Part shown: positions 22,590 through 52,199 of the stretch, one piece after another
Position numbering within the stretch: the first letter of the stretch is position 1
Layout of the letters: the number at the start of each line of letters is the position of its first letter
The notes under the pieces: generated by a model
Databases searched by the model: none
Told to the model about the DNA's origin: nothing
The model's input: only the letters and a program-made list of their open reading frames with translations
NCBI RefSeq assembly: GCF_030407495.1
Contig: NZ_JASDDG010000024.1
Span: 1-64,000, forward strand
DNA length: 64,000 nucleotides
From: Arthrobacter sp. APC 3897
GTDB taxonomy: Bacteria > Actinomycetota > Actinomycetes > Actinomycetales > Micrococcaceae
Direction: 5' to 3'
Position numbers and translations under genes: made by a program

Positions 22590-22640
22590 TTGACTGTGTT
22601 GCCATCCCGCCCTATATTGAACCGAAGTAGGTTTGGTTTA
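22590..22640 (+). promoter_or_regulatory. Promoter for the MDR/crotonase operon with a possible operator
   Basis: TTGACT (22590-22595), a 17-nt spacer and TATATT (22613-22618) make a good housekeeping-sigma promoter. Directly downstream, AACCGAAGTAGGTT forms an AACC/GGTT inverted repeat. Its place just after the -10 box matches the operators at other island promoters, though its sequence agreement is weaker. The leader to the ATG at 22832 is about 200 nt and shows no gene. Confidence 0.6.
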
Positions 22641-22831
22641 TGTGGGCACCAATTGTGCAGCCTCGTCCAGATGGTGAAACGTCCGCTGAGACGAAAGGTC
22701 AAAATCCCCATAGCGGCACTGCATTTCGGTGGCACTTTAGGAGATGTCCAATACGCATCTCCCGGCACCAAGTCAGCGAACGTTGATTACTCAGAGAGGT
22801 CAATCATGGCTGTGACAACGAGGGGCCGCTG

Positions 22832-23878
22832 ATGCGTGCGGTGCAGCTTTTGGAATGGGGTGGCTTACCGCATCTGCGTGATGTCCCTGAACCCAAGCCT
22901 GTGGGCGAGCAGTTACTGATCAGAGTTCAGGCTGCGGGTTTGTGTCTGTCCGATTTGCACGTCATGGATGCACCCGGTGACACCTTCAGTTATCCGCTGC
23001 CGCTCACCCTCGGACACGAAGTGGCTGGGACCGTCATTGCCGCAGGCCCCGACGCCGATACCTCCTGGATGGGGCGGTCCGCTGTCGTGCACGGCATTTG
23101 GGCCTGCCGGGAATGCCGAAACTGCCGCCGCGGGAGAGGAAACTACTGTCTTGAGTTGCGGCCGCGGGTGGATGGACTTCTGCCTGTCATTGGCAATGGA
23201 CTGGGCCGGCCCGGCGGACTTGCGGAGCAGATGCTGGTTCCGTCTTCGGAGGTGCTGGTGGACATTAAGTCGCTGACCGCGGTGCAGGCTGCGCCGCTGG
23301 CCGATGCGGGCCTCACCGCCTACCATGCAATCAATTCCCACCGCAGCCTTATCGATGGGAATACTGTCGCCGTCGTCATCGGTGTCGGTGGGTTGGGGCA
23401 TTTGGCCATACAAATCCTGAAGTACATGCAGGTGAAAGAAATCGTAGCCGTAGACAACCGGACGACAGCCTTGGAGCTGGCCCGGCGTCTCGGGGCCACC
23501 AGTGCCCACTCCTCAATGGAGGACGCGGCGTCGGCAATAGCCGGGTTGGGTGCAGCCGATATCGTCTTCGATTTCGCGGGCGCACCGTCAACTGTCGGGG
23601 CCGCTGCCGAGGCACTGGCTCCCGGTGGACGGGTGGTGGTGGTAGGCAGCGGCGGTGGCCGAGTCACCGTGGGCAAAGACCTTGGGTTGGCCAGTGGGTG
23701 GCAGGTCAGTGCGCCGTTCTGGGGCACCCGGGCTGAGCTTGAAGCGGTCGTGGACCTGGCCGTCGCCGGCGTTCTGCATGCTGAATCCACGAGCTATCCG
23801 CTGGAGAGTGCGCCGGAGGTGTACCGGCAGCTGCGGGCAGGCGAGATTGACGGCCGCGCTGTCATCGTCCCCGGCTGA
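22832..23878 (+). CDS. Zinc-dependent MDR alcohol dehydrogenase
   Basis: A 348-residue medium-chain dehydrogenase. Catalytic zinc ligands lie in GLCLSD (Cys) and LGHEVAG (His-Glu). The structural-zinc cysteines are CRECRNCRRGRGNYC, and the NAD-binding motif is VIGVGGLGHLA. The first gene of the island, it is followed after 51 bp by a crotonase-fold gene. It likely oxidises a primary or secondary alcohol of the island's substrate or an intermediate; the specific alcohol cannot be read. The start follows GAGGGG about 7 nt upstream. Confidence 0.88.
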   Translation: MRAVQLLEWGGLPHLRDVPEPKPVGEQLLIRVQAAGLCLSDLHVMDAPGDTFSYPLPLTLGHEVAGTVIAAGPDADTSWMGRSAVVHGIWACRECRNCRRGRGNYCLELRPRVDGLLPVIGNGLGRPGGLAEQMLVPSSEVLVDIKSLTAVQAAPLADAGLTAYHAINSHRSLIDGNTVAVVIGVGGLGHLAIQILKYMQVKEIVAVDNRTTALELARRLGATSAHSSMEDAASAIAGLGAADIVFDFAGAPSTVGAAAEALAPGGRVVVVGSGGGRVTVGKDLGLASGWQVSAPFWGTRAELEAVVDLAVAGVLHAESTSYPLESAPEVYRQLRAGEIDGRAVIVPG

Positions 23879-23929
23879 TCACCACGGGGGCGGCCGCACG
23901 GAACGCCACTACAAGACCGAAGGAGCACA

Positions 23930-24709
23930 ATGAACTTTGACAGCGTAAAAACGAACAGAGACGGTGCCATCATGTGGCTGACGCTGAACCGGCCGACCGA
24001 GGCAAATGCCCTCAGCCTCCCGCTGGCCGCGGAATTTGCTGCCGCCTTGGCCTTAGCAGAGGCAGATTCGGGCTGTCATGTCGTCATTCTCCAAGGGGCG
24101 GGCAAATTCTTCTGTGCTGGAGGTGACGTCGCAGGGATGGCCGATGCTGAAGACAAGAGCGGATACCTGAAGGAGCTTGCGGGGGCAATGCATGAGGTGA
24201 TCCTGGCGATGCTCCGGTCCCGCCTGATAATAGTTGCGGCAGTCCACGGTCCTGCCGCCGGAGCAGGGCTCGGCTTGGTGCTCGCCGCCGACTTCGTCCT
24301 GGCGACCCCCGATGCCACGTTCAGGAGCGCGTACGCCGGAGTTGGGCTGACACCTGATTGTGGTGTCTCGTATCTGCTCCCGCAAGCGATTGGTCCGGGG
24401 CGTGCAGCCCAGATGTGTTTGGGTGGCCATGTGGTCACAGCCCGGGACGGCGCCGATTGGGGATTGGTCGGCGAGCTGATTCGGACGTCTGAATTGGGGA
24501 CGAGGGGCCGGGAGCTGGGGGAGCGCATGGCGGCCGGGGCGACGCAGACCCTGGGGCCCACCAAGCGGCTGTTAACTGAGGAGCGGCTTTCGACCTTCTC
24601 GGATCATCTGGACAAAGAACTCAGCACGATCTCGACGTTGGGATCCAATCCGGACACCGTGCAGCGGATCGATGCTTTCGCCCGCGGCCGTGTCAAGAGC
24701 CGGCTTTAG
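23930..24709 (+). CDS. Enoyl-CoA hydratase/isomerase family protein, PaaG-like
   Basis: A 259-residue crotonase-fold enzyme. The CoA oxyanion-hole segments FFCAGGDVAGM (61-70) and GPAAGAGLGL (107-116) are present. The first hydratase glutamate is missing (GAGLGL instead of GGxxEL), and the second position lies in FRSAYAGVGLTPDCG, where Asp143 matches the PxD of PaaG and enoyl-CoA isomerases. It is therefore more likely an isomerase or ring-oxepin-type enzyme than a simple hydratase. AAGGAG precedes the ATG. It is co-transcribed with the MDR gene and ends before a strong hairpin shared with the convergent MaoC gene. Confidence 0.85.
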   Translation: MNFDSVKTNRDGAIMWLTLNRPTEANALSLPLAAEFAAALALAEADSGCHVVILQGAGKFFCAGGDVAGMADAEDKSGYLKELAGAMHEVILAMLRSRLIIVAAVHGPAAGAGLGLVLAADFVLATPDATFRSAYAGVGLTPDCGVSYLLPQAIGPGRAAQMCLGGHVVTARDGADWGLVGELIRTSELGTRGRELGERMAAGATQTLGPTKRLLTEERLSTFSDHLDKELSTISTLGSNPDTVQRIDAFARGRVKSRL

Positions 24710-24719
24710 GCCGGGCCGG

Positions 24720-24764: not shown

Positions 24765-24774
24765 CACAGGGATT

Positions 24775-25248
24775 TCAGGGTACGGGCTGGCGGCTGCCGG
24801 CCACCACGCGCATCAGGAACTCAGCCACACAGGCGGGCCTGGTGGAGTCCTCGGCGGTAATGGACACCGTCAACGTTATCTGCAGGGCATCGCCCATCGG
24901 CTCGCACGCGCCAATGACAGCAGTACCCCGGACTCTGGATCCGGCAGCCACCGGGGCAGGGAAACGCACCTTGTTCATGCCGTAATTAATGGCGCTGTGC
25001 AAATTCTCCATCTGGAAGATTTCCATAACGATGGGGGAGACCAGGGACAGAGTTAGGTAGCCGTGTGCGACAGTTGTGCCGAAGGGCCCGGTTGCAGCCC
25101 GTTCGGGATCCGTGTGAATCCATTGTTCATCTTCCGAAAGCCTGCCGAAATCATTGATCCGCTGCTGGTCCAAGGTGAACCAGCGGCTGGGGCCGACCTC
25201 CTGGCCAAGGGCGGCCTTGATTTCCTCCACCGAAGCAAAGACGGTCAT
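24775..25248 (-). CDS. MaoC-like (R)-specific enoyl-CoA hydratase
   Basis: A 157-residue hotdog-fold hydratase. The hydratase-2 catalytic block is visible as INDFGRLSEDEQWIHTDPERA ... GPFGTTVAHGYLTLSL, with the Asp/His pair that adds water to trans-2-enoyl-CoA. It overlaps the upstream SDR gene by 4 nt (ATGA), so the two are co-translated; hydration then oxidation of the 3-hydroxyacyl-CoA would be a natural pair. It lies on the minus strand, divergent from the acyl-CoA dehydrogenase gene at 26099. Confidence 0.88.
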   Translation of the reverse strand: MTVFASVEEIKAALGQEVGPSRWFTLDQQRINDFGRLSEDEQWIHTDPERAATGPFGTTVAHGYLTLSLVSPIVMEIFQMENLHSAINYGMNKVRFPAPVAAGSRVRGTAVIGACEPMGDALQITLTVSITAEDSTRPACVAEFLMRVVAGSRQPVP

Positions 25249-26003
25249 TTGGCACCTCCGGTCACGTACAGAACCTGTCCGGTGACGTAGCCTGCTTCTT
25301 CCGCAGCGAAGAACGCGGCGGCATGGGCGATGTCTGCCGGCACCCCGCCCCGGCGCACCGGAGCCGCGGCCGCTGCAGCTTCGCGCATCTGCTCGATGGT
25401 GATGCCCATTCGCTCGGCCGTGGCCTTGGTCATGTCTGTCTCGATGAATCCCGGCGCAATTGCATTTGCCGTGATGCCAAACGGGCCCAGTTCGATAGCC
25501 AGGGTCCGGGTCAGCCCCTGGAGTCCGGCCTTGGCTGCCGAGTAATTGGCCTGGCCGCGGTTGCCGAGCGCCGATGACGATGACATCGAGATGATTCGAC
25601 CATAACCGTTTTTGACCATGTGCTTCTGGGCGAGCTGGCTGGCGATGAAAGCGCCCTGCAAATGGACAGCCATGACGGTGGTCCAGTCATCATCGGACAT
25701 TTTGAACAGCAGATTGTCCCGCAGGACGCCTGCGTTATTGATGAGGATGTCCAGGCTTCCGAACTCTTCGACCACCCGACCGAACGCTTCCTGCATCTGG
25801 GCACGGTCGGTAACGTCCGCTCCCAGTCCAATGGCCTCTCCGCCTGCCTGCTCAATACCCTTGGCAGTGAGCTCTGCGGAGTCCTTGTTGAGATCGAGGA
25901 CGGCTATGCGGGCTCCGCCCGCAGCGAGGTGGCCGGCGACGGCGGCGCCGATTCCCTGTGCGCCTCCGGTGACGACGGCCACTCTGTTTGAAACTCCGGG
26001 CAT
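25245..26003 (-). CDS. Short-chain dehydrogenase/reductase (FabG-like)
   Basis: A 252-residue classical SDR: TGGAQGIGAAVAGHLA (cofactor glycines), VLDLNKDS, NNAG, the catalytic Ser/Tyr/Lys in MSSSSALGNRGQANYSAAKAG, and a C-terminal GYVTGQVLYVTGG. ATG 26003 is chosen because AAGGAG lies 7 nt upstream; longer in-frame starts have no such site. With the coupled MaoC hydratase it probably forms a 3-hydroxyacyl-CoA module. The TetR-type operator at 26078-26094 lies between this gene and the divergent dehydrogenase gene. Confidence 0.88.
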   Translation of the reverse strand: MPGVSNRVAVVTGGAQGIGAAVAGHLAAGGARIAVLDLNKDSAELTAKGIEQAGGEAIGLGADVTDRAQMQEAFGRVVEEFGSLDILINNAGVLRDNLLFKMSDDDWTTVMAVHLQGAFIASQLAQKHMVKNGYGRIISMSSSSALGNRGQANYSAAKAGLQGLTRTLAIELGPFGITANAIAPGFIETDMTKATAERMGITIEQMREAAAAAAPVRRGGVPADIAHAAAFFAAEEAGYVTGQVLYVTGGAK

Positions 26004-26077
26004 GATTTTGCTCCTTGCGTTCATCGTGAGAATTCTGGGCTGTGGTTCCAAGGGAAAGATCTGTGGACAGATAAACC

Positions 26078-26094
26078 AAACTGAACTAACTTCA
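26078..26094. promoter_or_regulatory. Probable TetR-type operator in a divergent promoter region
   Basis: AAACTGAACTAACTTCA matches 15 of 17 bases of the operator upstream of both crotonase copies. It contains a TGAACT-A-ACTTCA inverted repeat with one mismatch. It lies in the 95 bp between the SDR start (26003) and the acyl-CoA dehydrogenase start (26099), so it could control both. Confidence 0.6.
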
Positions 26095-26098
26095 AGTT

Positions 26099-27289
26099 AT
26101 GCTATCTAACCAGATCTTGGACCACAATGTTGATTTTCGTGAAGGACTCCGGGAAGCGGAGCTTGTTCCCACGGATGAACAGGCAGAGCTGCGCACTGTG
26201 GTGCGTGACTATCTTGAGTCCCGCGGTGAGGCCGAGCTTCGGCGAATGCTTGGATCGAATCCGGGTACCGATCGGAGGGCCTGGAAAGCGATGGCTGAGG
26301 AGCAGGGCCTGCCTGCCCTTGCGATCAGCGAATCCGACGGCGGGATGGGCTACGGTTTTGCCGAGCTGGTTGTCGCAATAGAGGAATGCGGCCGGCGCCT
26401 GGCCTTTCCTTCATTACTGACAACGGCGGTGCTCGGTGCTGAACTACTCTTTGCCCTGCCGCCGGGGGTGCATCGGGCCGAGTGGCTTGCCGCCATTGCG
26501 GCCGGGGAACTCCTGATGGCGGTCACGGGGCCCGGAGTGCCAGCAGCTGGGGTGTCCAACGTTTCCGCGCGGGCTTCCGGGGGCGGGTGGCTGCTCGAGG
26601 GAACGGCTGAATTCGTATTGGATGGGGCGGCTGCTGATGTTGTTTTGGTTCTGTGCGGAGACAGCGGTCCCGGGGCCGCGTTGTTCGCCTGCAAGACGGA
26701 CGCCGTCGGACTGCTCAGGTCACCGCTGCAGACACTTGACCTGACCAGGGCACAGGCACGGTATGAGTTCCAGGGGGCTGAAGCGGCGTTGCTCGCTGAA
26801 GGTGATGCTGCCGCCGCGGCATGGCGCCGCATGCTGGCCCTGGGCAAGGTGGCTGTCGCATCCGAGCAGCTCGGAGTGGCTGGCTTTGCGCTGGATACAG
26901 CGGTGGAATATGCCAAATCGCGGCAGCAGTTCGGGCGGCCGATCGGATCCTTTCAGGCAATCAAGCACAAATGCGCTGATCTGTTGGTTGAGCTTGAATC
27001 AGCCCGTTCGGCAGTGGCCTTTGCTGTCTGGGCGGCACAGAGCGGCCACACCTCGCTGCCCCTGGCGGCTGCGCTGGCCAAATCCGCGGCATCGGACGCC
27101 TGCACCAGAGTAACCGCGGAGTCGATCCAGATCCACGGCGGCATTGGCTTCGCCTGGGAGAACCCTGCCCATCTGTACTTCCGCCGGGCCAAGAGCATGG
27201 AAGTGCTTTTCGGTGACGGCCAAGCGCAGCGTGCCGACATTGGGCAACTGCTGGGGCTCGCCGCGTCTGCCGGCGGTTCGACTCGTTGA
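26099..27289 (+). CDS. Acyl-CoA dehydrogenase (FadE type, non-canonical active site)
   Basis: A 396-residue ACAD-fold protein. FAD and substrate segments include LVPTDEQAELRTVVRDYL, the mid domain, YAKSRQQFGRPIGSFQAIKH and IQIHGGIGFAWENPAHLYFR. Where medium-chain ACADs carry the YEGT glutamate it reads LFGDGQ, so the classical base is absent. This is common in one subunit of the actinobacterial heteromeric FadE dehydrogenases, so pairing with the ACAD at 30734 is plausible. The ATG lies only 5 nt downstream of the operator and lacks a clear Shine-Dalgarno; a TTG at 26117 is an alternative start. Confidence 0.85.
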   Translation: MLSNQILDHNVDFREGLREAELVPTDEQAELRTVVRDYLESRGEAELRRMLGSNPGTDRRAWKAMAEEQGLPALAISESDGGMGYGFAELVVAIEECGRRLAFPSLLTTAVLGAELLFALPPGVHRAEWLAAIAAGELLMAVTGPGVPAAGVSNVSARASGGGWLLEGTAEFVLDGAAADVVLVLCGDSGPGAALFACKTDAVGLLRSPLQTLDLTRAQARYEFQGAEAALLAEGDAAAAAWRRMLALGKVAVASEQLGVAGFALDTAVEYAKSRQQFGRPIGSFQAIKHKCADLLVELESARSAVAFAVWAAQSGHTSLPLAAALAKSAASDACTRVTAESIQIHGGIGFAWENPAHLYFRRAKSMEVLFGDGQAQRADIGQLLGLAASAGGSTR

Positions 27290-27394: not shown

Positions 27395-28186
27395 ATGACG
27401 ACCGACAGGGATTTTGAGGGACAAGTGGCAGTAGTGACCGGCGCCGGCTCAGGGATCGGTGCTGCAACCGCGCGCCTCCTTGTTGAGAGGGGAGCTGCCG
27501 CCGTGTATCTGTGCGACATCAATGCGGCCGCGGCAGTGGAGGTGGCTGGTTCGATCGAGGGTGGAACGGGAATCGGTTTGGATGTGGGCAACCCTGATGA
27601 GGTGGATGCCGCGTTCAAGCGTGTACTCGCGGAGAAGGGGCGAATCGACGTCGTCGTCCACGCAGCCGGCGTAGATGATCCGCAGAGTAAGCAGAAGATC
27701 TATGAGGCAGCCGAACGCAAGGAGCCGGTCGACATCTTGTCTCAGTTGAGTAATGAGGCCTGGCGGCGGATCATCTCCGTGAACTTGGACGGAACATTCT
27801 TTGTGCTGCGTGCTGCCGTGCGTGCAATGAAGCCGCAGGGGGCCGGCAGCATCGTGACGATCGGATCTTCGGCGGCCTTCGACACACTGACCGGATATCC
27901 CCACTACGCAGCCTCCAAAGCGGGGGTCCACGCGCTGAGCCAAGCTGCCGCCAAGGAAGTTGCTCCCTTTGGGATCCGCATCAACACGGTGGCGCCGGGG
28001 CCCGTGGACACCGGGATGGCTTCTCGCACTCCTGTCGCCCTGCGCGAAGCCATGTCGGACACCGGTGCACGCGGCTTCGCCACGGCCCGGGAGCTGGCGG
28101 ACAACATCCTCTACTTAGCATCACCTGGAGCAGCAAACATCATCGGTGCAGTCCTGCTCAGCAATGGCGGCAGGTTCACTGTCTGA
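27395..28186 (+). CDS. Short-chain dehydrogenase/reductase
   Basis: A 263-residue classical SDR with TGAGSGIGAATARLL, CDIN after strand 2 (NAD preference), HAAG in place of NNAG, Ser/Tyr/Lys in IGSSAAFDTLTGYPHYAASKAG, and VAPGPVDTGM. It has a longer loop than usual around 95-115 (DPQSKQKIYEAAERKEPVD), likely near the substrate pocket. It follows the ACAD gene on the same strand after 105 bp and precedes the crotonase promoter. Substrate unknown; a hydroxyacyl-CoA or cyclic alcohol is likely from context. Confidence 0.87.
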   Translation: MTTDRDFEGQVAVVTGAGSGIGAATARLLVERGAAAVYLCDINAAAAVEVAGSIEGGTGIGLDVGNPDEVDAAFKRVLAEKGRIDVVVHAAGVDDPQSKQKIYEAAERKEPVDILSQLSNEAWRRIISVNLDGTFFVLRAAVRAMKPQGAGSIVTIGSSAAFDTLTGYPHYAASKAGVHALSQAAAKEVAPFGIRINTVAPGPVDTGMASRTPVALREAMSDTGARGFATARELADNILYLASPGAANIIGAVLLSNGGRFTV

Positions 28187-28318: not shown

Positions 28319-28377
28319 TTGACAAGCTGCAATGCGGACCTAGACTGGGGTAACCAAAACAAACTGAAGTCACTTCA
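28319..28377 (+). promoter_or_regulatory. Promoter and operator of crotonase copy A
   Basis: TTGACA (28319-28324), a 16-nt spacer and TAGACT (28341-28346) form a strong promoter. Downstream, AAACTGAAGTCACTTCA (28361-28377) contains the perfect inverted repeat TGAAGT-C-ACTTCA, suited to a dimeric TetR repressor acting just after the transcription start. Confidence 0.75.
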
Positions 28378-29239
28378 TTTTGGGAGTTGCTTCACCGACG
28401 GATGGAAGTGCCATGGCTGTGGAAGACGAGATCCAGTTTGAGCGTGACGGGCACGTGGCCCGGGTGTGGCTGAATCGACCGCATAAGCGCAATGCCGTGA
28501 CGGTTGAGGTGCTGGACCGTCTGGATGAGATTATTACCGAGATTGATGCTGACCCGGAGCTGCGGGTGCTGGTGCTGCGGGGGCGTGAAGGCACGTTCTG
28601 CTCGGGCTTTGACCTCGATGCCCTGCAGGCGGATTTCGTGGGTCAGTCCCTGGCCATCGAGGTTGCGGTGAAGTCCGCGAAGGTCTGTGACCGGCTGTAT
28701 TCGATGAAGACTCCGTCGGTGGCGGTGTTGGAGGGGTATGTGACCGCCGGTGGGTTCGAGTTGATGATTTCCTGTGACTTTGCCATTGCCGATGACGAGG
28801 CGAAGATCGGTGATTTCCATATCCGCCGCGGACTCTACGGGGGCGCGGGCCCGATTTACCGGGTGCCGCGGATGATCGGTATCCGCAAGACCAAGGAGCT
28901 GATGCTGACGGGCAAGCTGCTTTCCGGTGTGGAGGCAGCGCAGTGGGACCTGATTAATCTCTCCGCTCCGGCGCATGAGCTGGATAAGCGGGTGGATGAG
29001 TTCATTGCGGATCTGACGGATAAGAGCCCGTTGACGATGTGGATCACCAAGATGACGGTGGATCGGTCCCTGGATGCGGACACGCAGTCGTTGATGGTTA
29101 TGGAGCATCTGGCCGTGGGTGTGGTGCTGCAGTCCAATGATGCTGCCGAGGGCGTTTCCGCGTTCCTGGAAAAGCGTGAGCCGGTCTGGACAGGCAACTA
29201 ACATGACAGCGGCTCCGGAGAAGAACCGGACGGACGGGG
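28348..29239 (+). repeat. 892-bp perfect direct repeat, copy A
   Basis: This segment is identical, as far as I can read, to 43462-44353 (offset 15,114 bp). Similarity extends upstream to 28334 with one mismatch at 28347. It starts just past the promoter -10 box, spans the operator and the whole crotonase gene, and ends 37 nt into the next coding region. No inverted ends or transposase mark it as an insertion sequence. Confidence 0.95.
28413..29201 (+). CDS. Enoyl-CoA hydratase family protein, copy A
   Basis: A 262-residue crotonase-fold protein, identical to the gene at 43527. Oxyanion-hole segments are GTFCSGFDLDAL (60-71) and VTAGGFELMIS (110-120). Of the two hydratase glutamates, the first is present (Glu116 in GGFEL) but the second position is His136 in GDFHIRRG. 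A standard syn-hydration is thus uncertain; hydrolase, isomerase, lyase or atypical hydratase activity is possible. ATG 28413 follows GGAAG and is preferred to a start at 28380. Its stop is 1 nt before the DUF35 start, so it heads an operon that continues at least to 34220. Confidence 0.87.
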   Translation: MAVEDEIQFERDGHVARVWLNRPHKRNAVTVEVLDRLDEIITEIDADPELRVLVLRGREGTFCSGFDLDALQADFVGQSLAIEVAVKSAKVCDRLYSMKTPSVAVLEGYVTAGGFELMISCDFAIADDEAKIGDFHIRRGLYGGAGPIYRVPRMIGIRKTKELMLTGKLLSGVEAAQWDLINLSAPAHELDKRVDEFIADLTDKSPLTMWITKMTVDRSLDADTQSLMVMEHLAVGVVLQSNDAAEGVSAFLEKREPVWTGN

Positions 29240-29589
29240 CGGTGCTGCCGGCGTTGAGATGCCCAGCCTGCACTCTTGTGATCTATCCGCGCACTGCATC
29301 GATCTGTCCACGCTGCAGCATGAAAGAGCTGGAGACATACGGCGCCGCAGCGGACGGCCGGATCTGGACCTACACCGTCCAGCGGTTCCCTCCGAAGTCG
29401 CCGCCCTATTCCCCCGCCGGGGAGTTCGCCCCCTTCGTCGTCGCCTATGTGGAGACCGGGGACGGGATTCGGATCGAGGGAATCCTCTCCGGTGTAGACG
29501 CTGCCAATGTGCATATCGGCATGGAGGTGAGTCTGGAGTCCTGCACGGACGTCCCTCGCTACGTGCCGGCCCGGGGCGGGACGTCATGA
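29203..29589 (+). CDS. DUF35 OB-fold protein with rubredoxin-like zinc ribbon
   Basis: A 128-residue protein. Four cysteines (LRCPACTL and SICPRCSM) form a zinc ribbon, followed by an OB-fold with WTYTVQRFPPKSP and FAPFVVAYVE. DUF35 proteins are obligate partners of thiolase-fold enzymes such as the steroid side-chain aldolase Ltp2-ChsH2. The following thiolase-fold gene overlaps by 4 nt (ATGA), which supports a complex. Its first 12 codons lie inside the 892-bp repeat and recur at the start of the OYE-like gene at 44317. Confidence 0.87.
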   Translation: MTAAPEKNRTDGAVLPALRCPACTLVIYPRTASICPRCSMKELETYGAAADGRIWTYTVQRFPPKSPPYSPAGEFAPFVVAYVETGDGIRIEGILSGVDAANVHIGMEVSLESCTDVPRYVPARGGTS

Positions 29590-37030: not shown

Positions 37031-37085
37031 TTGTGGAGGGTGGCACACGACACTAGGCTCAAGCTATGTCGAAGTGAATTCACTT
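37031..37085 (+). promoter_or_regulatory. Promoter and palindromic operator before the EthD/ligase operon
   Basis: TTGTGG (37031-37036), a 17-nt spacer and TAGGCT (37054-37059) form a promoter. Downstream lies the perfect 14-bp palindrome AAGTGAATTCACTT (37072-37085) at the same relative place as the other island operators. About 200 nt of leader to ATG 37294 has no gene. Confidence 0.65.
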
Positions 37086-37293
37086 GAGTCTTAGGGGAGC
37101 GATGAAGATTCGCCCGCTCTCCGGCCGCTCGAAGAACTATGAAGCGGCCATAAGGGGAAGTACCTCCGGGGCAACGGTGCGCCGGGGGAAGGTGCCAAGG
37201 GCTTATTGGTGGTGAGATGAAGCGGGAAGACGGTTCGCATGACAGTACAGCCTCCCAGCAGCGTCCCACTATCAGAGCGGGAATGAGAGCGAC

Positions 37294-39134: not shown

Positions 39135-39147
39135 AGGGATGAGGGTC

Positions 39148-43432: not shown

Positions 43433-43491
43433 TTGACACAACACAGCGCGGACCTAGACTTGGGTAACCAAAACAAACTGAAGTCACTTCA
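43433..43491 (+). promoter_or_regulatory. Promoter and operator of crotonase copy B
   Basis: TTGACA (43433-43438), a 16-nt spacer and TAGACT (43455-43460) are followed by the operator AAACTGAAGTCACTTCA (43475-43491). The -35 and -10 hexamers and spacer length equal those of copy A, but the spacer sequence and everything upstream differ, so the duplication boundary lies within the promoter. Confidence 0.75.
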
Positions 43492-44353: not shown

Positions 44354-46308
44354 ACAGTGCACCCAAGGCTGGCGACCCGGTTCGGATTCGCGGACTTATC
44401 CTCCGAAACCGCCTGACAGCCACAGCTCACGGGCTCGCCGCCGTTAGGGACGGCGAGCCGCTGGAGGGGGATGCCGAGTACTGGGCTCGTCTCTCACGCG
44501 GCGGAGCCTCCATGCTGGTTGCCGGGGCGACTCAGGTGGCCAAGGAATCGCTGTTGCGCCAGCGGTACCTGACGGAGGCCTTTCGCCGCGAGACTCTCCC
44601 CGGCCTGCGCCGCAGGGCTGTGGCCATGAAATCCGGGGGGGCAGTTGCAGCCCTGCAGTTGGGCCATCTCGGACGGGAGACCCTGGGCGCCAACACGAGC
44701 TACGCTTTTGTCTCGCCCAGCGCTGTCAAGTCCCCCCGGGAGCAGACGCCTGTACGGGTTCTTCGGACAGAGGAAATTTCAGATCTGGTCAATGCCTTCA
44801 AAGTATCCGCACGCAATGCGTATGAAGCAGGGTTCGACGTTGTCGAACTTCACGGAGCCCATGGCTACCTCATTGCCAACTTCCTGAATCGTTTGGTCAA
44901 CACGCGCAGTGACCGTTTCGGGGGAGGCGCCGGGCAGCGCATTCTGTTCGTGCAGCAAATCATTGAAGCTATTCGCGGCGTCTCCGGGGACGCTCCTTTG
45001 GGACTGCGTGTGTCAGTTGAGGGTGGTTCGGAAAGCGGGCTGGCCATGGATGACCTGTGCGAGCTGCTGCAGGTGCTGCAGGACCGGGCTCCGGTGGACT
45101 ACATCAACCTCAGTTACGGGGTGCGGGGGCACTATGTGCCGGACATGGCGACGGAGGTTCCCCGGTTAGTTCCAGACAGTGGCAGCTTGCGTTCGGTACT
45201 TGACGTACCACTCATTGTTTCCTCTGCATTCCGCAATTCGGCTTCCATTGACCAAGCACTGTCCTCCAGGTCAGCGGACCTGATCGGTATGGCCCGTGCC
45301 CATATCGCTGATCCGGATTTTGTGGCCAAGATGCTCGGCGGACGTGAATCCGAAATCAGGCCCTGCGTGGCCTGCAACGAGGACTGCCGCGCCTTCGATC
45401 CGACGGCCCTGTGCACCGTGAATCCAGCTTTGGCGCCGCAGGGTGAAACCCTCCGGCCGGCCTCGCCCATTGTCCTCAGGCTTGGACCCACCCGCGTTTC
45501 TCCGCGGCTGGCGGTGGTCGGAGCCGGCCCGGCTGGGCTGGAATGCGCCATCACTGCCGCTGCTGGAGGAGCCGAGGTGGTCCTTTTCGAGGGGGCCGAC
45601 CGTATCGGCGGCCAGTTGCTCACTGCGGCGGCAGGACCGAACCGTTCCGGTTGGTTGAACCTGCTGGAGTTTTACGAGAGTTCGCTGTTGCGCGGCAGGG
45701 TCAACGTCAAACTCGGGGTCCGCGCAGACTCTGCGTCGCTGGAAGGGTTTACCGACGTCGTGCTGGCCCTCGGCGCCCGGGAAGAGGTCGGACCTGTGCC
45801 TGAAGGCGGCACTGTTTGCACCTCCTCCCAGTGGCTGCACGGGAAGCACGGGAGCGGCCGTATTGGGAACATAGTCATTGTCGACGATGGTTTTGGGTGG
45901 TGGACGCTGGTCAGTTCCATCGAGGCGGCCATAGCCAGAGGAGCCGAGCGGATCAGTGTCGTGACCCCGGCGGCAGGGTTCGCCGGGGGCATTCCTGCCG
46001 AGTCAAGGATGCAGTTCCAGGCACGGCTGCAAGGGGTTCCTCTGCATATAATCCCGTTCACTGAGCTTGAGGGTGCTCCTGCTGGCGCGGCCGTCGTCCG
46101 CCACATTTACTCGGGGGAGTCCACCCGCCTCAATGCCAACATTGTGGTAACCGTGGGGTTGCGGGTGCCGCAAACCTTGGCCGTTGCCGGGAGGGATTCA
46201 TCGGTGCGGATAGTCGGCGACGCAGTGATTCCCCGGCGCGTCAGCCATGCGGTCAGCGAGGGCCGCAGGGCAGGACTTGACGTCCTCGCCGCAGCAAAAA
46301 CTCCCTGA
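44317..46308 (+). CDS. OYE / 2,4-dienoyl-CoA reductase-like FMN-FeS-FAD oxidoreductase with acquired N-terminus
   Basis: A 663-residue protein of the FadH (2,4-dienoyl-CoA reductase)/2-enoate reductase family. Order: an OYE-type TIM barrel (IRGLILRNRLTATAHGL, ELHGAHGYLIANFLNRLVN), a 4Fe-4S cysteine cluster CVACNEDC...C (about 350-369), then a FAD/NAD domain (VVGAGPAGLECAIT, about 402). It would reduce an enone, dienoyl-CoA or enoate double bond. The first 12 residues MTAAPEKNRTDG are copied from the DUF35 gene by the 892-bp repeat; the barrel proper begins about 10 residues later. ATG 44317 is 1 nt after the crotonase stop. Confidence 0.85.
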   Translation: MTAAPEKNRTDGDSAPKAGDPVRIRGLILRNRLTATAHGLAAVRDGEPLEGDAEYWARLSRGGASMLVAGATQVAKESLLRQRYLTEAFRRETLPGLRRRAVAMKSGGAVAALQLGHLGRETLGANTSYAFVSPSAVKSPREQTPVRVLRTEEISDLVNAFKVSARNAYEAGFDVVELHGAHGYLIANFLNRLVNTRSDRFGGGAGQRILFVQQIIEAIRGVSGDAPLGLRVSVEGGSESGLAMDDLCELLQVLQDRAPVDYINLSYGVRGHYVPDMATEVPRLVPDSGSLRSVLDVPLIVSSAFRNSASIDQALSSRSADLIGMARAHIADPDFVAKMLGGRESEIRPCVACNEDCRAFDPTALCTVNPALAPQGETLRPASPIVLRLGPTRVSPRLAVVGAGPAGLECAITAAAGGAEVVLFEGADRIGGQLLTAAAGPNRSGWLNLLEFYESSLLRGRVNVKLGVRADSASLEGFTDVVLALGAREEVGPVPEGGTVCTSSQWLHGKHGSGRIGNIVIVDDGFGWWTLVSSIEAAIARGAERISVVTPAAGFAGGIPAESRMQFQARLQGVPLHIIPFTELEGAPAGAAVVRHIYSGESTRLNANIVVTVGLRVPQTLAVAGRDSSVRIVGDAVIPRRVSHAVSEGRRAGLDVLAAAKTP

Positions 46309-46461: not shown

Positions 46462-46507
46462 TTGACATTACACATTTCGACAACTAGCTTTCTAACTGAC
46501 ATCAGTT
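46462..46507 (+). promoter_or_regulatory. Promoter and operator of the ABC-transporter operon
   Basis: TTGACA (46462-46467), a 17-nt spacer and TAGCTT (46485-46490) form a strong promoter. AACTGACATCAGTT (46494-46507), an AACTGA/TCAGTT inverted repeat, starts 3 nt after the -10 box. The 344-bp gap from 46309 to 46652 otherwise shows no gene. Confidence 0.7.
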
Positions 46508-46652
46508 CAGTTTCAGTAAGGTTTTCGGTCGTTGAATGGTGTCGGAATGGTCGATTCGGGAAGTGCTGGAAGGCAACCCGACACAAGGTTTCACCCGTTC
46601 AATCAACAACGGAGAACCTCATTAGAGGTTCCGAGGGAAAGCTCGTGCACAA

Positions 46653-47690
46653 ATGAGATCACTCACGAAAGTGGTTGCAACTCTCGCGATCGCCGCGTCA
46701 ACGTTCTGCCTGGCGGCTTGCGGGGGGAGTGCGGCGTCGTCCGGTCCGGTGGAGGGAACCTGGGACGACGTCGTGAAGGCAGCGAACGAAGAGGGCAAGG
46801 TGATGCTCTACTCGACGCAGAAGCCGGCCAATCTGGAGGCGCTGAAGGCGGCTTTCCATGCCGAATACCCCGAGATCACCATGGAGATCGTTCGCGGAAC
46901 CGATGCTGAAATCACTCCCCGGATCGAGACCGAGAAGAAGACCGGCAAGGGTGTCGCTGACGTTCATATGCTCACGGACGCCCCCTGGATCGAGAACGCG
47001 GCAGCTTCAGGTGCCTATTCGGCCGATTTGCTCGGCCCTGAACTGGATTCGCCGGCTTATGTGCCCGATAAGAGCGTCATAAAGGACCGCTTTTGCCTCG
47101 TGAGTGCAGCGGTGTTTGGGCTGGGATGGAACACGGATGCGGTACCTGGCGGCTTGAATACTCCACAAGACCTTCTGGACCCCGCGTTCAAGGGCAAAAT
47201 CGGCATTGTAAACCCGACCGGAATTGCCTCCTATGTGGATCTTTACCGCTACTACGCCAAAACCTACGGCGAGGATTACTGGGAGCAACTGGCCGCTCTG
47301 GAACCTCGCATCTATCCGAGCGCGTTGGGGGTGGCTCAGGCACTGACCTCCGGTGAGGTCGTCGTGACTCCCTCAGTGCAGCCATTGGTTACCGAAGTCG
47401 AGGCCGGTGCACCGGTCGACTGGAAACTGCAGGACAGTTTTTGGGGTACCCCTTGGTACGCCCATGTCGTAGCCATCGCTCCGCATCCGAACGCAGCGCA
47501 GGTCCTGGCGGACTTCATGGTGACCACCGAGGGACAAACGGCCCTCAATTCAGGTTATGCAGCTGCCCTTCCCGATATCCCCGAAGCCGTGGCGGTAGCT
47601 CAGGACATTGCCTCCCCCGACGCCGCGAACCTGACCCCGGAAAAGGTTGAACAGTATTCCGAGGAGTGGCAGAAGCTCTTCCAGCGCTGA
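46653..47690 (+). CDS. ABC-transporter substrate-binding lipoprotein (Fe3+/putrescine-type family)
   Basis: A 345-residue extracellular binding protein with a lipoprotein signal peptide: a charged start, a hydrophobic stretch and lipobox LAAC (20-23, lipidated Cys23). The mature part (EEGKVMLYSTQKPANLEALKAAFHAEYP, GLGWNTDAVPGGLNTPQDLLDPAFKGKIGI) is typical of the ferric/putrescine/phosphonate-type family. Iron uptake is not implied: it is encoded with catabolic SDR genes and an island operator, so an organic acid is the more likely ligand. It supplies the importer at 48524-51411. Confidence 0.85.
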   Translation: MRSLTKVVATLAIAASTFCLAACGGSAASSGPVEGTWDDVVKAANEEGKVMLYSTQKPANLEALKAAFHAEYPEITMEIVRGTDAEITPRIETEKKTGKGVADVHMLTDAPWIENAAASGAYSADLLGPELDSPAYVPDKSVIKDRFCLVSAAVFGLGWNTDAVPGGLNTPQDLLDPAFKGKIGIVNPTGIASYVDLYRYYAKTYGEDYWEQLAALEPRIYPSALGVAQALTSGEVVVTPSVQPLVTEVEAGAPVDWKLQDSFWGTPWYAHVVAIAPHPNAAQVLADFMVTTEGQTALNSGYAAALPDIPEAVAVAQDIASPDAANLTPEKVEQYSEEWQKLFQR

Positions 47691-47739: not shown

Positions 47740-48522
47740 ATGAATGAAGCGGCAAAGAAGTTCAGCGGAACCACGGTATTGGTTACGGGTGCATCGAAGG
47801 GAATCGGTGGTGCCTGCGCAAGGTTGTTTGCGCAGCACGGCGCAACAGTGTGGCTGACTGACATAGACGATGCGGCCGGCACAGAACTCTCCTGCGTCCT
47901 CGGGCCGAACACCTATTTTCGGCATCTTGACGTGACGGCAGAATCCGAGTGGGAGTCCTTGCTGCTGGAGATCAACGAGACTGGCCAACAGATCGACGTC
48001 CTTGTGAACAGCGCCGGCGCTGCCATCAAGGCGCCATTGCTTGAAACCTCCCTGGATCAGTTTCGAGCGATGCTGGAGCTGAACCTAGTTGGGACCTTCC
48101 TGGGAACCAAGTCTGTCGCAGGACAGATGCGGGCCGGCGGTTCGATCATCAATCTCGCATCGTTGCGGGGTGTGCTGGCGACCGCAGAACTCGGAGCCTA
48201 CGGTGCATCAAAGTTCGGAGTTCGGGCGCTGACGAAGGTTGCCGCGCTTGAATTGGCTGACCGCGGAATCCGCGTTAATGCCGTTTGCCCGGGAAGTATT
48301 GACACCCAGATCTCCGCTTCGCCGGGCTTTGCTGACGATGACGTCGAGGCTTATATCCAAACCATCCCCATGCAGCGCCGGGGCACGCCCGAGGAAGTGG
48401 CGAAAGTCATTCTCTTCCTGGCAGGAGAGGACAGCGGCTATGTCACAGGGACCGACATCCTCGTGGACGGCGGCACCGCCGCCGGCGCCCGTACTCCGAA
48501 AAAATCAACCCAGAAGGTATGA
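47740..48522 (+). CDS. Short-chain dehydrogenase/reductase
   Basis: A 260-residue SDR inserted between ABC genes: TGASKGIGGACARLF, TDIDDA (NAD-type aspartate), NSAG, Ser/Tyr/Lys in NLASLRGVLATAELGAYGASKFG, VCPGSIDTQ and VTGTDILVDGG. ATG 47740 follows GAAGAGAG. The ATPase gene starts 1 nt after its stop, so it is part of the transporter operon and probably acts on the imported compound at once. Confidence 0.88.
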   Translation: MNEAAKKFSGTTVLVTGASKGIGGACARLFAQHGATVWLTDIDDAAGTELSCVLGPNTYFRHLDVTAESEWESLLLEINETGQQIDVLVNSAGAAIKAPLLETSLDQFRAMLELNLVGTFLGTKSVAGQMRAGGSIINLASLRGVLATAELGAYGASKFGVRALTKVAALELADRGIRVNAVCPGSIDTQISASPGFADDDVEAYIQTIPMQRRGTPEEVAKVILFLAGEDSGYVTGTDILVDGGTAAGARTPKKSTQKV

Positions 48523-48523
48523 G

Positions 48524-49687
48524 ATGACCTCCAAATTCAGAGTTTCCGGTCTCACGAAATCCTATGGATCGAACATCGTCGTCGACCAGCTCGACCTGGA
48601 AATTGAAGAGGGTGAATTCCTGGTTCTGCTGGGACCCAGCGGTTGCGGCAAGACGACGACGCTGCGCTGCCTGGCCGGTCTGGAGACCCCGCAGGACGGC
48701 ACCATAACGTTTAAGGACCGGATGGTCTTTGACGGACAAAGCCACCTGAACGTGCCGGCGCACAAACGGAACATTGGCATGGTCTTTCAGTCGTATGCGC
48801 TGTGGCCGCATATGACGGTGCGGAAAAACATCGGGTATCCACTCAAAGTCCGGAATATGAAACAGGACATCGACAGCGGTGCAATTGAAGCAGCAGCCGA
48901 GATGGTGGACTGCGGTAAGCTGCTCGACCGTTATCCTTCCCAACTTAGCGGCGGCCAGCAGCAGCGTGTAGCCGTTGCCCGCGGGCTGGTGTCCCGTCCG
49001 GATCTGGTCCTCTTCGACGAACCGCTCAGCAACCTTGATGCCCGGCTGCGTGACCAGGTGCGGTCACAAATTCATCAGTTGCACCAGAAACTTGGCTTCA
49101 CTGCCGTTTTTGTCACTCATGACCAGTCCGAGGCCTTCGCTCTCGGAGACCGCCTCGCAATCATGAAGTCCGGAAAGATCGAGCAATACGATGCTCCGGA
49201 GCATGTATTCGAGAATCCGGTGTCTGAATACGTTGCGGCATTCATCGGGATGGGTAACCGGCTCGAGCTGCGGAACGGTCACGACGGCTGGATGACATCG
49301 GCAAGCGATCCGATTGATTTGAAGCGGGCCGCCGTTCGTGGACTGGCAGATGAGGGCGCCACTGCAGTGGCCCGTTTCCGCCCGGATGACCTGACGCTGC
49401 ACCGGTCCATGAATGAGGTCCCAGCTGGAAACGTTTCGCTTCACGCCGAATTGGTGACGTATGAGTACGGCGGCAGGCATTTTGACGTCACCGTGAAAAC
49501 CGGCACCGAGGAATTGACGCTGCGCGCGAATGCTTATGAACACAGCGCAGCCCTTCGCGCGAGCAAACCAGGTGAACCGATGGTCGTGAGCTTTTCCCCG
49601 TCGGCGTTGCGGGTATTCGCTGCCAACACGGGGGACGCTGCCGCGGCAAGGCAGCTCACAGCAGTGCCTGCCGAGGCGGCAGCCTGA
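48524..49687 (+). CDS. ABC-transporter ATP-binding protein
   Basis: A 387-residue ATPase: Walker [11 protein letters not shown] (36-45), Q-loop FQSYALWPH, signature LSGGQQQR (about 141-148), Walker B LVLFDEP (about 162-168), D-loop and H-loop [10 protein letters not shown]-terminal TOBE domain (about 245-375) matches the FbpC/PotA/UgpC type. ATG 48524 is 1 nt after the SDR stop; the stop overlaps the permease start by 1 nt (TGATG). Confidence 0.92.
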
Positions 49688-51411
49688 TGGCAATCCTGTC
49701 CACGGAACGGCCGTCGACGGCGTCGACGACACCGGCGCACCGGCACAAGGGGATCCCTGTACATTGGCGGGCACGGATTTGGTATGGGGCTCTGTTGGTC
49801 GTTCTTGCCTACTTGGTCCTGTTGCCGATGGTCCGGTTGCAGCTGCTGGCTTTCGAGAACGATGCCCAGGGTTACCGTACCCAGTACGGCCGCTATGACA
49901 TCGCCCAGACAATCGGAACAACGGTCGCCTTTGCGCTTGGATCATTGGTTATCGCAATGGTGCTGGGCACACTGCTGGCGTTTGCGGCGAGCAGGCTGCC
50001 AGCCAAGGCGGGTTTTTTGCGCGTTATCCCTATTCTGCCGATCGTGATGCCCTCGGTGGCCAATATCGTCGGCTGGGCGTTCCTGCTCTCGCCGGGGCCA
50101 GGTTACCTTAACGTCCTGCTGCGAATGCTCCCGTGGTGGAACGGATCCGACACCGGACCCATCGATGTCTATACCTTGCCGTGGATCATCATCCTGACTG
50201 GATTCGGCTTGACGTCGTTCGTCTACTTGTTCGTCAACTCCGGGATGGAAAGTATCAGCTCAGAACATCTTGAAGCTGCCCAGGTTAGTGGATCATCAAG
50301 CCTCGGCGTGTTCTTCAGGGTGCTGCTGCCATTGCTTCGGCCGTCCCTGATCTACGGCGGCGGCATCGCGTTCCTCCTGGGACTCGGGCAGTTCACTGGC
50401 CCGCTGCTGCTCGGACAAAACAGCGGTGTGAAGGTACTGACAACCGAAATGTACCGACGGGTCTCGGAATCACCGTCCGATTTCGCGGCAGCGGCAGCGG
50501 CCGGCTCGCCGCTGGTCATCTTCGGCATTGCCTTGGTTTTGATCCAGAAGGCGATGCTCGGTGATCAGACCCGGTTTGTCACGCACGGCGGCAAGGCTTT
50601 TGCGCCCCCGACAGGCAAAGGTACATGGGCCACAATTACCATCTCATTGTTCGCGTTGGTTTCATTGGTGATCCCCATGGTGGGCCTCATCATCGTTTCG
50701 CTGACGCCGTATTGGTCTGGATCACTCTCCTGGAGCCTCCTCACCCTGGACAACTTTCGCGTGCTGTTTGCCACGGATGCGATCGTCGAATCCGTGGTGA
50801 CCAGCGTCCTGACATCCCTGGGAGCGGTGGCCATCTGCGTACCCATCGGATATCTGATGGCCAATCTGCTCGTCCGCGGGCGGCGGTTTAGGATCCTTGC
50901 AATGATCGCCGACCTGATCACGGCCCTGCCGCTGTCCGTCCCGGCGGTTATCTTTGGTGTCGGGTTCCTGCTGACCTACACAGAACCGCCGTTCATCCTG
51001 TATGGCACCCGCACAGTCATCGTCCTGGTCTACATCGTGCTGATGCTGCCTTTCGCAACACGGATGCAGATGACCTCGATGCTTGCACTGGGCAACACCT
51101 ATACGGAGGCCTCGGCAACCAGCGGAGCGTCCCCGTTCGTGACGAACATCAGGATCATGCTCCCACTGATGCGCCCGACTATTCTGAGCGCCGTCGCACT
51201 GATGTTCATCCTGCTGACACACGAGTTCGCCGCATCACTGCTGGTGCGTTCCTCGACCACCCAGGTGATGGGCACATTGCTGTACGACATGTGGCAGAAC
51301 GGCACCTATCCGCTGGTGGCCGCAATGGCACTGCTGATGACAGCTGTGACAACGGCAGGCGTTGGCGTTGCCATGTTGATCGGCGGCCGCAACGTGCTCA
51401 GCAAACTGTGA
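49687..51411 (+). CDS. ABC-transporter permease, fused two-module (FbpB-like)
   Basis: A 574-residue membrane protein with two BPD-transporter permease halves (about 65-290 and 345-565), each ending in an EAA-like cytoplasmic loop (EHLEAAQVSGSSSLGVFFRVLLP; TYTEASATSGASPFVTNIRIMLP). The single fused permease with about 12 helices is the FbpB/ThiP arrangement and pairs with the binding protein and ATPase upstream. It completes the importer; the substrate is probably the island's growth compound. Confidence 0.9.
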   Translation: MAILSTERPSTASTTPAHRHKGIPVHWRARIWYGALLVVLAYLVLLPMVRLQLLAFENDAQGYRTQYGRYDIAQTIGTTVAFALGSLVIAMVLGTLLAFAASRLPAKAGFLRVIPILPIVMPSVANIVGWAFLLSPGPGYLNVLLRMLPWWNGSDTGPIDVYTLPWIIILTGFGLTSFVYLFVNSGMESISSEHLEAAQVSGSSSLGVFFRVLLPLLRPSLIYGGGIAFLLGLGQFTGPLLLGQNSGVKVLTTEMYRRVSESPSDFAAAAAAGSPLVIFGIALVLIQKAMLGDQTRFVTHGGKAFAPPTGKGTWATITISLFALVSLVIPMVGLIIVSLTPYWSGSLSWSLLTLDNFRVLFATDAIVESVVTSVLTSLGAVAICVPIGYLMANLLVRGRRFRILAMIADLITALPLSVPAVIFGVGFLLTYTEPPFILYGTRTVIVLVYIVLMLPFATRMQMTSMLALGNTYTEASATSGASPFVTNIRIMLPLMRPTILSAVALMFILLTHEFAASLLVRSSTTQVMGTLLYDMWQNGTYPLVAAMALLMTAVTTAGVGVAMLIGGRNVLSKL

Positions 51412-51431
51412 CGATCGAAAGGCCGGCTGGG

Positions 51432-52199
51432 ATGGTTCGCGGAGCAGATTTGAGGTTGCAGGACAAAGTTGTCCTCGTGACCGGGGCGACCGGAGGAATC
51501 GGCGTTGAAATCGTACGCCGGCTGGCTTCCGAAGGCGCCTCACTGGTCGTCACCGATCTCGATGCCGCAGCGTGCGAGGACCTGATATCCGGACTGGACG
51601 AGCCGGCACGGCATCATGCGGCCGGCCTGGACATTGCCTCCGAGCGGCAGTGGATTGAGACTGTCGCTGTTATCGACCGAAAGCTCTCGCGACTGGACGC
51701 GGTGATCAACAACGGTGCGATAGGAAGCATAGGAACGGTCGTCGACGAAAACCTGGAACGGTACAACAGGGTCATTGAGGTCAGCCAGACCGGTACTTGG
51801 CTCGGGATGAAGCACGGCGGGGCCCTGATCGAGCAGACCGGCGGCGGCGCGATTGTCAACATCTGCTCGATCTTGGGAACGGTTGGTGGGATGGGGAACA
51901 GCTTTGCCTACGCAGCAGCAAAGGGTGCCGTACGCACGATGACGAAAAATGCTGCTCTGTACTGGGCGAAGAAGGGCGTTCGGGTGAATTCGGTTCATCC
52001 AGGGTTCATAGAAACACAACAGCTGCTCGAACGCTACGAAGGCACGGACCGGCACACGTCAATGGTGGCAAACACACCGATGGGTCGGCTCGGCCGGGCT
52101 GCCGACGTCGCGGCGGCCGTTGCATTCCTGGCAGGTGACGACGCGACCTTCATCACGGGAAGCGAGCTGAATGTCGACGGCGGGTGGACCGCCGCCTGA
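51432..52199 (+). CDS. Short-chain dehydrogenase/reductase
   Basis: A 255-residue SDR: TGATGGIGVEIVRRLA, TDLDAA (NAD-type aspartate), NNGA, Ser/Tyr/Lys in NICSILGTVGGMGNSFAYAAAKG, VHPGFIETQ and ITGSELNVDGGW. ATG 51432 has GAAAGG upstream; a GTG at 51408 overlapping the permease stop is possible. It closes the transporter operon and the island. The boundary with core genes lies between 52200 and 52316. Confidence 0.88.
   Translation: MVRGADLRLQDKVVLVTGATGGIGVEIVRRLASEGASLVVTDLDAAACEDLISGLDEPARHHAAGLDIASERQWIETVAVIDRKLSRLDAVINNGAIGSIGTVVDENLERYNRVIEVSQTGTWLGMKHGGALIEQTGGGAIVNICSILGTVGGMGNSFAYAAAKGAVRTMTKNAALYWAKKGVRVNSVHPGFIETQQLLERYEGTDRHTSMVANTPMGRLGRAADVAAAVAFLAGDDATFITGSELNVDGGWTAA

Follow-up and report, generated by a model that had tools for sequence, protein, structure and literature searches.

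A candidate TetR-repressed catabolic island, possibly for a branched or alicyclic carboxylic acid, in Arthrobacter sp. APC 3897

We analysed a 64,000-nucleotide stretch of Arthrobacter sp. APC 3897 (contig NZ_JASDDG010000024.1, positions 1 to 64,000; hereafter the window), which is one of the 60 contigs of a 3.79 Mb genome. The subject is an island of catabolic genes with a TetR regulator. Reading frames together with Pfam and NCBIfam matches gave 29 genes at 22832-52199, where a sequence-only reading of the same DNA had counted about 27; its list of families agrees with both databases apart from the cases named below, and its start for the coenzyme A (CoA) ligase gene, 37635, was correct. The genes are as follows.

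22832 to 23878, + strand: MDR, zinc-type alcohol dehydrogenase (Pfam ADH_N/ADH_zinc_N; 62% to the Rhodococcus island copy)
23930 to 24709, + strand: ECH1, crotonase family (Pfam ECH_1)
24775 to 25248, - strand: MaoC-like hydratase, weak assignment (NCBIfam match only to the MaoC part of PaaZ, E 7e-9)
25245 to 26024, - strand: SDR1, FabG-like (Pfam, NCBIfam)
26099 to 27289, + strand: ACAD1, acyl-CoA dehydrogenase, candidate small subunit of a heteromeric enzyme (PDB match)
27395 to 28186, + strand: SDR2 (Pfam; 77% to the Rhodococcus copy)
28413 to 29201, + strand: ECH2a, crotonase with His136 at the first catalytic Glu position (Pfam, alignment)
29203 to 29589, + strand: OB, OB-fold/DUF35 partner protein (Pfam OB_ChsH2_C)
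29586 to 30731, + strand: LTP2, thiolase-like with altered active site (Cys78, Gln280, Thr282, Glu330; alignment)
30734 to 31954, + strand: ACAD2, acyl-CoA dehydrogenase, candidate large subunit (PDB match)
31951 to 33003, + strand: APH-fold kinase, ACAD11/LvaA-like (Pfam, sequence match, residues)
33003 to 34220, + strand: ACAD3, ACAD11/LvaC-like putative phospho-elimination enzyme (sequence match, residues)
34275 to 35051, + strand: SDR3 (Pfam, NCBIfam)
35048 to 35827, + strand: SDR4 (Pfam, NCBIfam)
35879 to 37027, + strand: thiolase (NCBIfam NF005865, 631 against a cut-off of 591 bits)
37294 to 37638, + strand: EthD-family protein (Pfam, NCBIfam)
37635 to 39134, + strand: LIG, acyl-CoA ligase (Pfam)
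39139 to 39552, + strand: NTF2a, putative NTF2-like (without family match; homologues in related loci)
39549 to 39920, + strand: NTF2b, NTF2/SnoaL fold (predicted structure)
39920 to 41014, + strand: MBL-fold hydrolase (Pfam)
41011 to 42342, + strand: FADox, fumarate-reductase/KstD-type flavoprotein (Pfam; weak ketosteroid dehydrogenase match)
42385 to 43059, + strand: TetR regulator (Pfam, NCBIfam)
43527 to 44315, + strand: ECH2b, second crotonase copy, identical to ECH2a (sequence comparison)
44317 to 46308, + strand: OYE-type flavoprotein (Pfam)
46653 to 47690, + strand: solute-binding protein (SBP) of an ABC importer (Pfam)
47740 to 48522, + strand: SDR5 (Pfam, NCBIfam)
48524 to 49687, + strand: ABC importer ATPase (Pfam)
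49687 to 51411, + strand: ABC importer fused permease (Pfam)
51429 to 52199, + strand: SDR6 (Pfam, NCBIfam)

Almost no island protein passes an NCBIfam equivalog cut-off; the thiolase does. NTF2b has no Pfam or NCBIfam match, and its predicted structure (pLDDT 92.8) matches SnoaL/ketosteroid-isomerase folds; NTF2a has no family match, and the neighbour annotation of its Rhodococcus homologue reads NTF2 family. Thus, of the two NTF2-like proteins claimed earlier one is borne out by its fold and the other is suggested by that annotation, while the claimed MaoC hydratase shrinks to the weak PaaZ match and the two flavin reductases become the two flavoproteins FADox and OYE. A scan of the genome contigs with FADox found no relative. 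As the sequence-only reading had said, no ring-opening oxygenase is present among the island's Pfam and NCBIfam family matches.

Promoters in the window have a palindromic operator in common, AACTGA-N6-TTCAGTT. With up to three mismatches the pattern matched 18 times in the window, counting both strands of the palindromes, whereas 100 shuffles averaged 5.1 and all stayed below 18. For comparison, named genomes were scanned with an ECH2 alignment, and the best 80 of 302 relatives, from 19 genera, were taken as related loci. In the 400 bases before ECH2 at least 11 of the 13 operator positions were found in 75 of these 80 loci, and at least 10 in 78; the same regions shuffled once each (n=80) gave 0/80 at 11 or more and a maximum of 10, seen once. 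A matrix was built from the sites of 75 relatives, with the window left out, and its five best matches in the window scored 18.9-29.1, the next one 9.0, and those in five shuffled windows at most 12.3. The five sites (palindromic, no strand) are the following.

26079 to 26097: operator between SDR1 and ACAD1, matrix score 18.9
28362 to 28380: operator before ECH2a, score 29.1, directly after TTGACA-17-TAGACT
37072 to 37090: operator before the EthD-ligase operon, score 23.3
43476 to 43494: operator before ECH2b, score 29.1, same sequence as at 28362
46494 to 46512: operator before the importer operon, score 24.2

All five are intergenic, standing before ECH2b-OYE, ECH2a to thiolase, SBP to SDR6 and EthD to FADox, and at SDR1/ACAD1; two of them lie in an identical repeat, so that four are independent. 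TTGACA-17-TAGACT occurs just upstream of both ECH2 operators and TTGACA-17-TAGCTT upstream of the importer operator. Across the 80 loci 395 matrix sites scored above 14, a count that takes in training sites and overlapping registers shifted by 5 bp, against 4 with the reversed matrix. When at most one mismatch was allowed, all sites of the pattern in the own genome were inside the island, whereas at most two mismatches gave 40 rows against 24 for the control, which is near chance; at this level the pattern exceeded the control in most other genomes but fell below it in Tomitella (G445), at 9 against 27. A search for unlinked regulon genes in relatives returned weak leads only. Our first operator guess, TGAAGTNACTTCA, was replaced after it occurred genome-wide 5 times per strand against 8 for its control, and a matrix score of 14.6 on another contig (C52) was set aside because that contig is short and has no open reading frame above 155 aa. 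In Rhodococcus clusters DUF1254/DUF1214 proteins adjoin operators (L157 3020-4366, L017 and L135). Since the five best matrix sites stand at island promoters, a single TetR regulon probably takes in most of the island, and the operators predict its co-induction.

The gene set recurs in other bacteria. Three plasmid loci were added to the 80, and proteins were scored as present, locus by locus, at 45% identity or more. Of the 83 loci, ECH2 was present in 83 (by selection, as the loci were picked through it), SDR4 in 81, ACAD2 and APH in 80 each, LTP2 in 79, and ACAD3 and TetR in 77 each; genes more than 10 kb away, such as those for the ligase and MBL, are under-counted, as the loci were cut there. 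The six core proteins (ECH2, LTP2, ACAD2, APH, ACAD3, SDR4) occurred together in 75/83, in hosts that include Streptomyces, Nocardia and Rhodococcus. The gene set is complete in plasmid records from Rhodococcus sp. BH4 and Streptomyces sp. NBC_01450, and in the sludge isolate R. qingshengii J1-2 the cluster is likewise on a plasmid. In 394 genomes sampled from the class, a search with LTP2 reached E 1e-110 or better for 72, own genome included, and the 71 others are all labelled as the same class and none as the same order. The best-scoring ligase match in 58 other genomes (28 of the same genus, 8 of the same family, 22 of the same order) was 36% identical over part of the protein. Loci of Pseudonocardia-like genera (L071, L072, L076, L078) show another type of cluster, in which the genes are reordered and ACAD3 is more distant (38-40%).

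By these comparisons the cluster is a recurrent and common type in soil actinobacteria and not a one-off mixture; it is also uncharacterised, as no description of it was recognised in a literature search of open-access PMC papers, judged from the listings. What had looked like a mix fitting no recognised pathway is thus a recurrent cluster with its own operator, and no already characterised cluster equal to the block came up in that search. The observations also bear on an alternative explanation, namely that the island is a patchwork of unrelated catabolic genes without a single pathway. Its mosaic make-up (below) and MDR-ECH1, which is without a supported operator, would fit such a patchwork, but core and operator both recur across loci, and with the core in 75/83 and an operator before ECH2 in 75/80 we rejected this explanation as highly improbable.

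Comparison with two relatives, G001 and G003, set the edges of the island at 22459-52207, in accordance with the earlier claim of a catabolic island of about 30 kb between ordinary genes, and its guanine-plus-cytosine fraction is 0.617 against 0.662 and 0.658 in the flanks. The closest relative, G001 (M20 peptidase 98% and DJ-1 protein 97% identical), is without the island: homology to the window ends at 22458 and restarts at 52208, the gap being filled by 1.42 kb of different sequence. G003 has an 84% identical segment in this gap; its right edge is also at 52208, and on the left homology ends at 6261, the end of a tRNA-Met gene (6187-6261). A second variable block, 6262-22458, lies between this tRNA gene and the island and is partly present in G001. 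The 1.42-kb insert of G001, which is absent from the window, codes for a P-loop ATPase, ParA-like by eye, and a ParA-like ATPase gene occupies the empty site in relatives (L163 4017-5438, L164 4146-5641). No direct repeat of at least 10 bp joins the island ends (400 bases compared at each end), and the island proteins that were scanned gave no match to an integrase or transposase family. The ABC genes share 80-81% identity with those of Rhodococcus and the core proteins are nearer to Streptomyces; in a midpoint-rooted tree built from four concatenated core proteins (65 sequences having all four) the window falls on the Streptomyces-type side, in a node of 43 tips with support 1.0. The island is therefore mosaic, and on this comparative evidence it is horizontally acquired and carries a putative catabolic regulon.

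A point absent from the sequence-only reading is an exact direct repeat of 892 bp, which holds two of the three crotonase genes.

28348 to 29239, + strand: repeat copy 1, with operator, ECH2 and the first 37 bases of the OB gene
43462 to 44353, + strand: repeat copy 2, with operator, ECH2 and the first 37 bases of the OB gene sequence

Because the repeat includes the start of OB, the first 12 codons of the OYE gene (44317-44352) are those of the OB gene, giving OYE a chimeric N-terminus. Related loci have one ECH2-OB junction only, which suggests that the copy in front of OYE is derived and arose by duplication or gene conversion.

The OB protein adjoins LTP2, as DUF35 partners do in the Ltp2/Sal aldolases. 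In LTP2 the Cys at the nucleophile position (Cys78) is kept in 79/79 sequences, and all 79 have Gln280, Thr282 and Glu330 at the positions of the thiolase His, Cys (HDCF) and His (GHP); the altered residues occur likewise in five sphingomonad or R. opacus relatives. The catalytic Tyr of Ltp2 and Sal lies in a YDHF/YDCY motif (PMC12329534), and Gln280 takes this position in 79/79, which weakens the earlier proposal of Ltp2/DUF35 retro-aldol cleavage. As the complete catalytic residues of neither enzyme are present, the labels "Ltp2 aldolase" and "thiolase" were both dropped for LTP2, and retro-aldol cleavage is kept as a conjecture. The predicted structure of LTP2 is poor (pLDDT 67.1). On plasmids of sphingomonads the OB/LTP2/ACAD2 triad recurs without APH/ACAD3; in L130, L131 and L133 of these, genes for an acoABC-like, thiamine pyrophosphate-dependent dehydrogenase follow OB-LTP2-ACAD. 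Judged by this conservation OB/LTP2/ACAD2 is a distinct unit with putative C-C cleavage activity.

The acyl-CoA dehydrogenases point in part to steroid enzymes. The best PDB match of ACAD2 is 6wy9_A, Tcur3483 (E 5.9e-47), followed by 4x28_A (2.3e-40) and then by 3e-31, and that of ACAD1 is 6wy8_A, Tcur3481 (E 6.8e-34), with rat short-chain acyl-CoA dehydrogenase (SCAD) at 2.6e-32. ACAD1 is thus nearest, narrowly, to 6wy8_A and ACAD2 to 6wy9_A/6wy8_B, which are different subunits, and the two are candidates for the chains of one heteromeric dehydrogenase, more clearly so for ACAD2. This raises the alternative that the island serves the catabolism of steroid or bile-acid side chains or ring fragments: Tcur3481/Tcur3483 have a role in steroid metabolism, OB is ChsH2-C-like by Pfam, the top NCBIfam match of TetR is KstR (41.7 bits against a cut-off of 280) and FADox weakly matches ketosteroid dehydrogenase. 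Among the island's Pfam and NCBIfam matches, however, there is no IpdAB, KshA/B, HsaC or similar protein, and LTP2, without the Ltp2/Sal Tyr, has closer relatives in SCP2-thiolase and BbsB, steroid Ltp2 being more distant; we regard a steroid substrate as unlikely.

APH and ACAD3 bring in a different chemistry. For ACAD3 the match to ACAD11 has an E of about 1e-121, with the next acyl-CoA dehydrogenase class at about 1e-37, and APH matches the ACAD11 kinase part, which upholds the phosphorylation/elimination chemistry proposed earlier. PMC12440821 names R626, R637, H634 (HCMR motif) and D753 as key residues of the ACAD10/11-LvaAC enzymes, and D220 and N225 in the kinase. Equivalents of R626, R637 and D753 are each invariant in 86/86 ACAD3 sequences, and the kinase Asp and Asn are kept in 51/51 APH sequences. 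By its residues APH/ACAD3 belongs to the ACAD11/LvaAC type of phosphorylation-elimination pair, and differs from it in a single motif residue. Such a pair could mean that gamma-hydroxy or gamma-keto acids and lactones (levulinate-like) are the main purpose and that the rest is accessory beta-oxidation. Levulinate use needs far fewer genes, though, and the sphingomonad triad recurs without APH/ACAD3, so that C-C cleavage would be an independent core function; we consider a levulinate-like purpose quite unlikely.

Clues to the substrate come from genes linked to the operator in relatives. IcmF (isobutyryl-CoA mutase; 1924 bits against a family cut-off of 1500) is found in 6/82 loci. An operator is near its start in 5/6 Streptomyces loci, in a region that could also serve a divergent gene, and in Nocardioides an operator is followed by EthD, MBL and then IcmF, all on one strand. 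In a check of its substrate-residue motif the residues did not match. Importer genes with an adjacent operator in related loci are LivH (22/24), MFS (12/13) and SBP (10/15). IcmF beside the operator suggests a branched skeleton, and different importer types with the operator in different hosts suggest that the acid is taken up as such; together, the IcmF, importer and Nocardioides clues favour a branched, possibly gem-dimethyl acid. In Nocardioides a P450 and an aldehyde dehydrogenase (ALDH) flank a weaker operator site (score 15.2). As a precedent, an Arthrobacter is reported to degrade cyclohexane-acetic acid via a hydroxyacyl-CoA lyase. Within the earlier substrate proposal a steroid fragment is less likely than a terpenoid or alicyclic acid, because no IpdAB-type CoA transferase is among the island genes and IcmF is linked in some relatives.

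One specific candidate is abscisic acid or a close apocarotenoid acid. Its route would start with activation to the CoA ester; the 3-methyl-2-enoyl chain would then be hydrated and cleaved at a C-C bond to give dehydrovomifoliol and acetyl-CoA, and a ring hydroxy-acid (rhodococcal acid) would lead on to an enedione on which OYE and SDR enzymes could act. According to PMC7996341 and PMC9599779, Rhodococcus sp. P1Y converts abscisic acid to dehydrovomifoliol and on to a ring-acetic acid, losing acetate at each step, and the degradation genes are described there as unknown; the chemistry fits LIG, ECH2, LTP2, OYE and FADox. R. qingshengii is named as an abscisic acid degrader (PMC12509608), a status given at species level, and one strain of it, J1-2, has the cluster. 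Nothing in the analysis, which made no search by name for strains P1Y and P6W, ties the cluster directly to abscisic acid, however, and its presence in many Streptomyces suggests a commoner substrate, which makes abscisic acid itself rather improbable.

Taken together, our results are best read as an acquired island with a TetR-repressed catabolic regulon for a branched or alicyclic (terpenoid- or naphthenic-like) carboxylic acid, a reading with conjectural pathway steps to which we give a probability of about 0.5. The acid would be imported and activated by LIG, the acyl-CoA desaturated by the ACAD1/ACAD2 enzyme and processed by ECH2, and the OB/LTP2 complex would cut the chain and release a short acyl-CoA. 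In an intermediate, SDRs would reduce a gamma-keto group, which APH would then phosphorylate and ACAD3 eliminate, after which crotonase, SDR and thiolase would finish beta-oxidation; FADox, OYE, MBL and the NTF2 proteins may deal with the ring or remaining oxygen functions, and the likely TetR ligand would be a CoA-ester or the free acid. The interpretation of the sequence-only reading is thereby partly supported: one CoA-thioester catabolic unit is supported, and this unit is real, transferred and probably co-regulated.

Several observations weigh against this picture. The TetR gene's own promoter scores 4.7 and is unsupported as an operator site, the matrix scan of the window listed no site at the MDR-ECH1 promoter, and in related loci the GMC, ALDH and OYE families had an operator at their own start in 0/6, 0/6 and 0/8 cases. 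The top match of ACAD1 is barely ahead of rat SCAD, the HCMR His of ACAD3 is replaced by Tyr262 in the window (Tyr 76/86, His 10/86), and LTP2 has neither the aldolase Tyr nor the thiolase His residues. ECH2, aligned to a dehydratase, keeps the second catalytic Glu (162) and has His136 for the first in 81/81, so that isomerase activity may take the place of hydratase activity; hydratase, dehydratase and isomerase are all possible. IcmF had no match in the own genome, an empty answer that is uninformative without a positive control.

A wider proposal is tentative: the cluster might encode a pathway, widespread among actinobacteria and so far undescribed, for an alicyclic (terpenoid) acid of plant or soil origin, perhaps abscisic acid. 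In it OB/LTP2 would be a thiolase-fold C-C lyase with a new type of catalytic site (Cys78, Gln280, Thr282, Glu330) that works with a phosphorylation-elimination pair, all under one TetR with a conserved operator, and the island would be a transfer into a Micrococcaceae-like host. The promoter operators offer a handle for an inducer search, by screening a reporter strain against compound libraries. It would also show whether C-C bonds are cut by a thiolase-fold enzyme that lacks the known thiolase or aldolase residues, and it bears on the bacterial breakdown of branched ring acids such as abscisic acid.

Among known systems, LvaAC and ACAD10-ACAD11 resemble APH and ACAD3, which are separate-gene relatives with the catalytic Asp, both Arg and the kinase Asp/Asn kept; here the HCMR His is Tyr in most members, and the setting is a large cluster and not a levulinate operon. 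Steroid side-chain modules (ChsE-type ACAD, ChsH-DUF35, Ltp2/Sal aldolase) share the heteromeric-type ACAD pair and the OB/DUF35 protein next to a thiolase-fold enzyme, but here the neighbour is a crotonase and not a MaoC-type hydratase, QDTD/E stands in place of YDHF/YDCY, and no steroid ring genes were seen in the island; compared with the KstR2-type regulon for steroid rings C/D, no ipdAB-type CoA transferase is among the island's Pfam matches. SCP2-thiolases and BbsAB (benzoylsuccinyl-CoA thiolase) are the closest solved sequences to LTP2. They share the nucleophile-position Cys, and BbsA is likewise a DUF35-type partner, whereas their HDxx and GHP histidines are Gln280 and Glu330 in LTP2. 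For ibuprofen, PMC9195938 assigns CoA-ester C-C cleavage to the thiolase-type pair ipfDE, a likeness in described function, but the ipf system has an aromatic substrate and a dioxygenase. Also close are the plasmid clusters of Rhodococcus sp. BH4, R. qingshengii J1-2 and Streptomyces sp. NBC_01450, which, in a different gene order and with different accessory genes, have the same gene set and the same operator.

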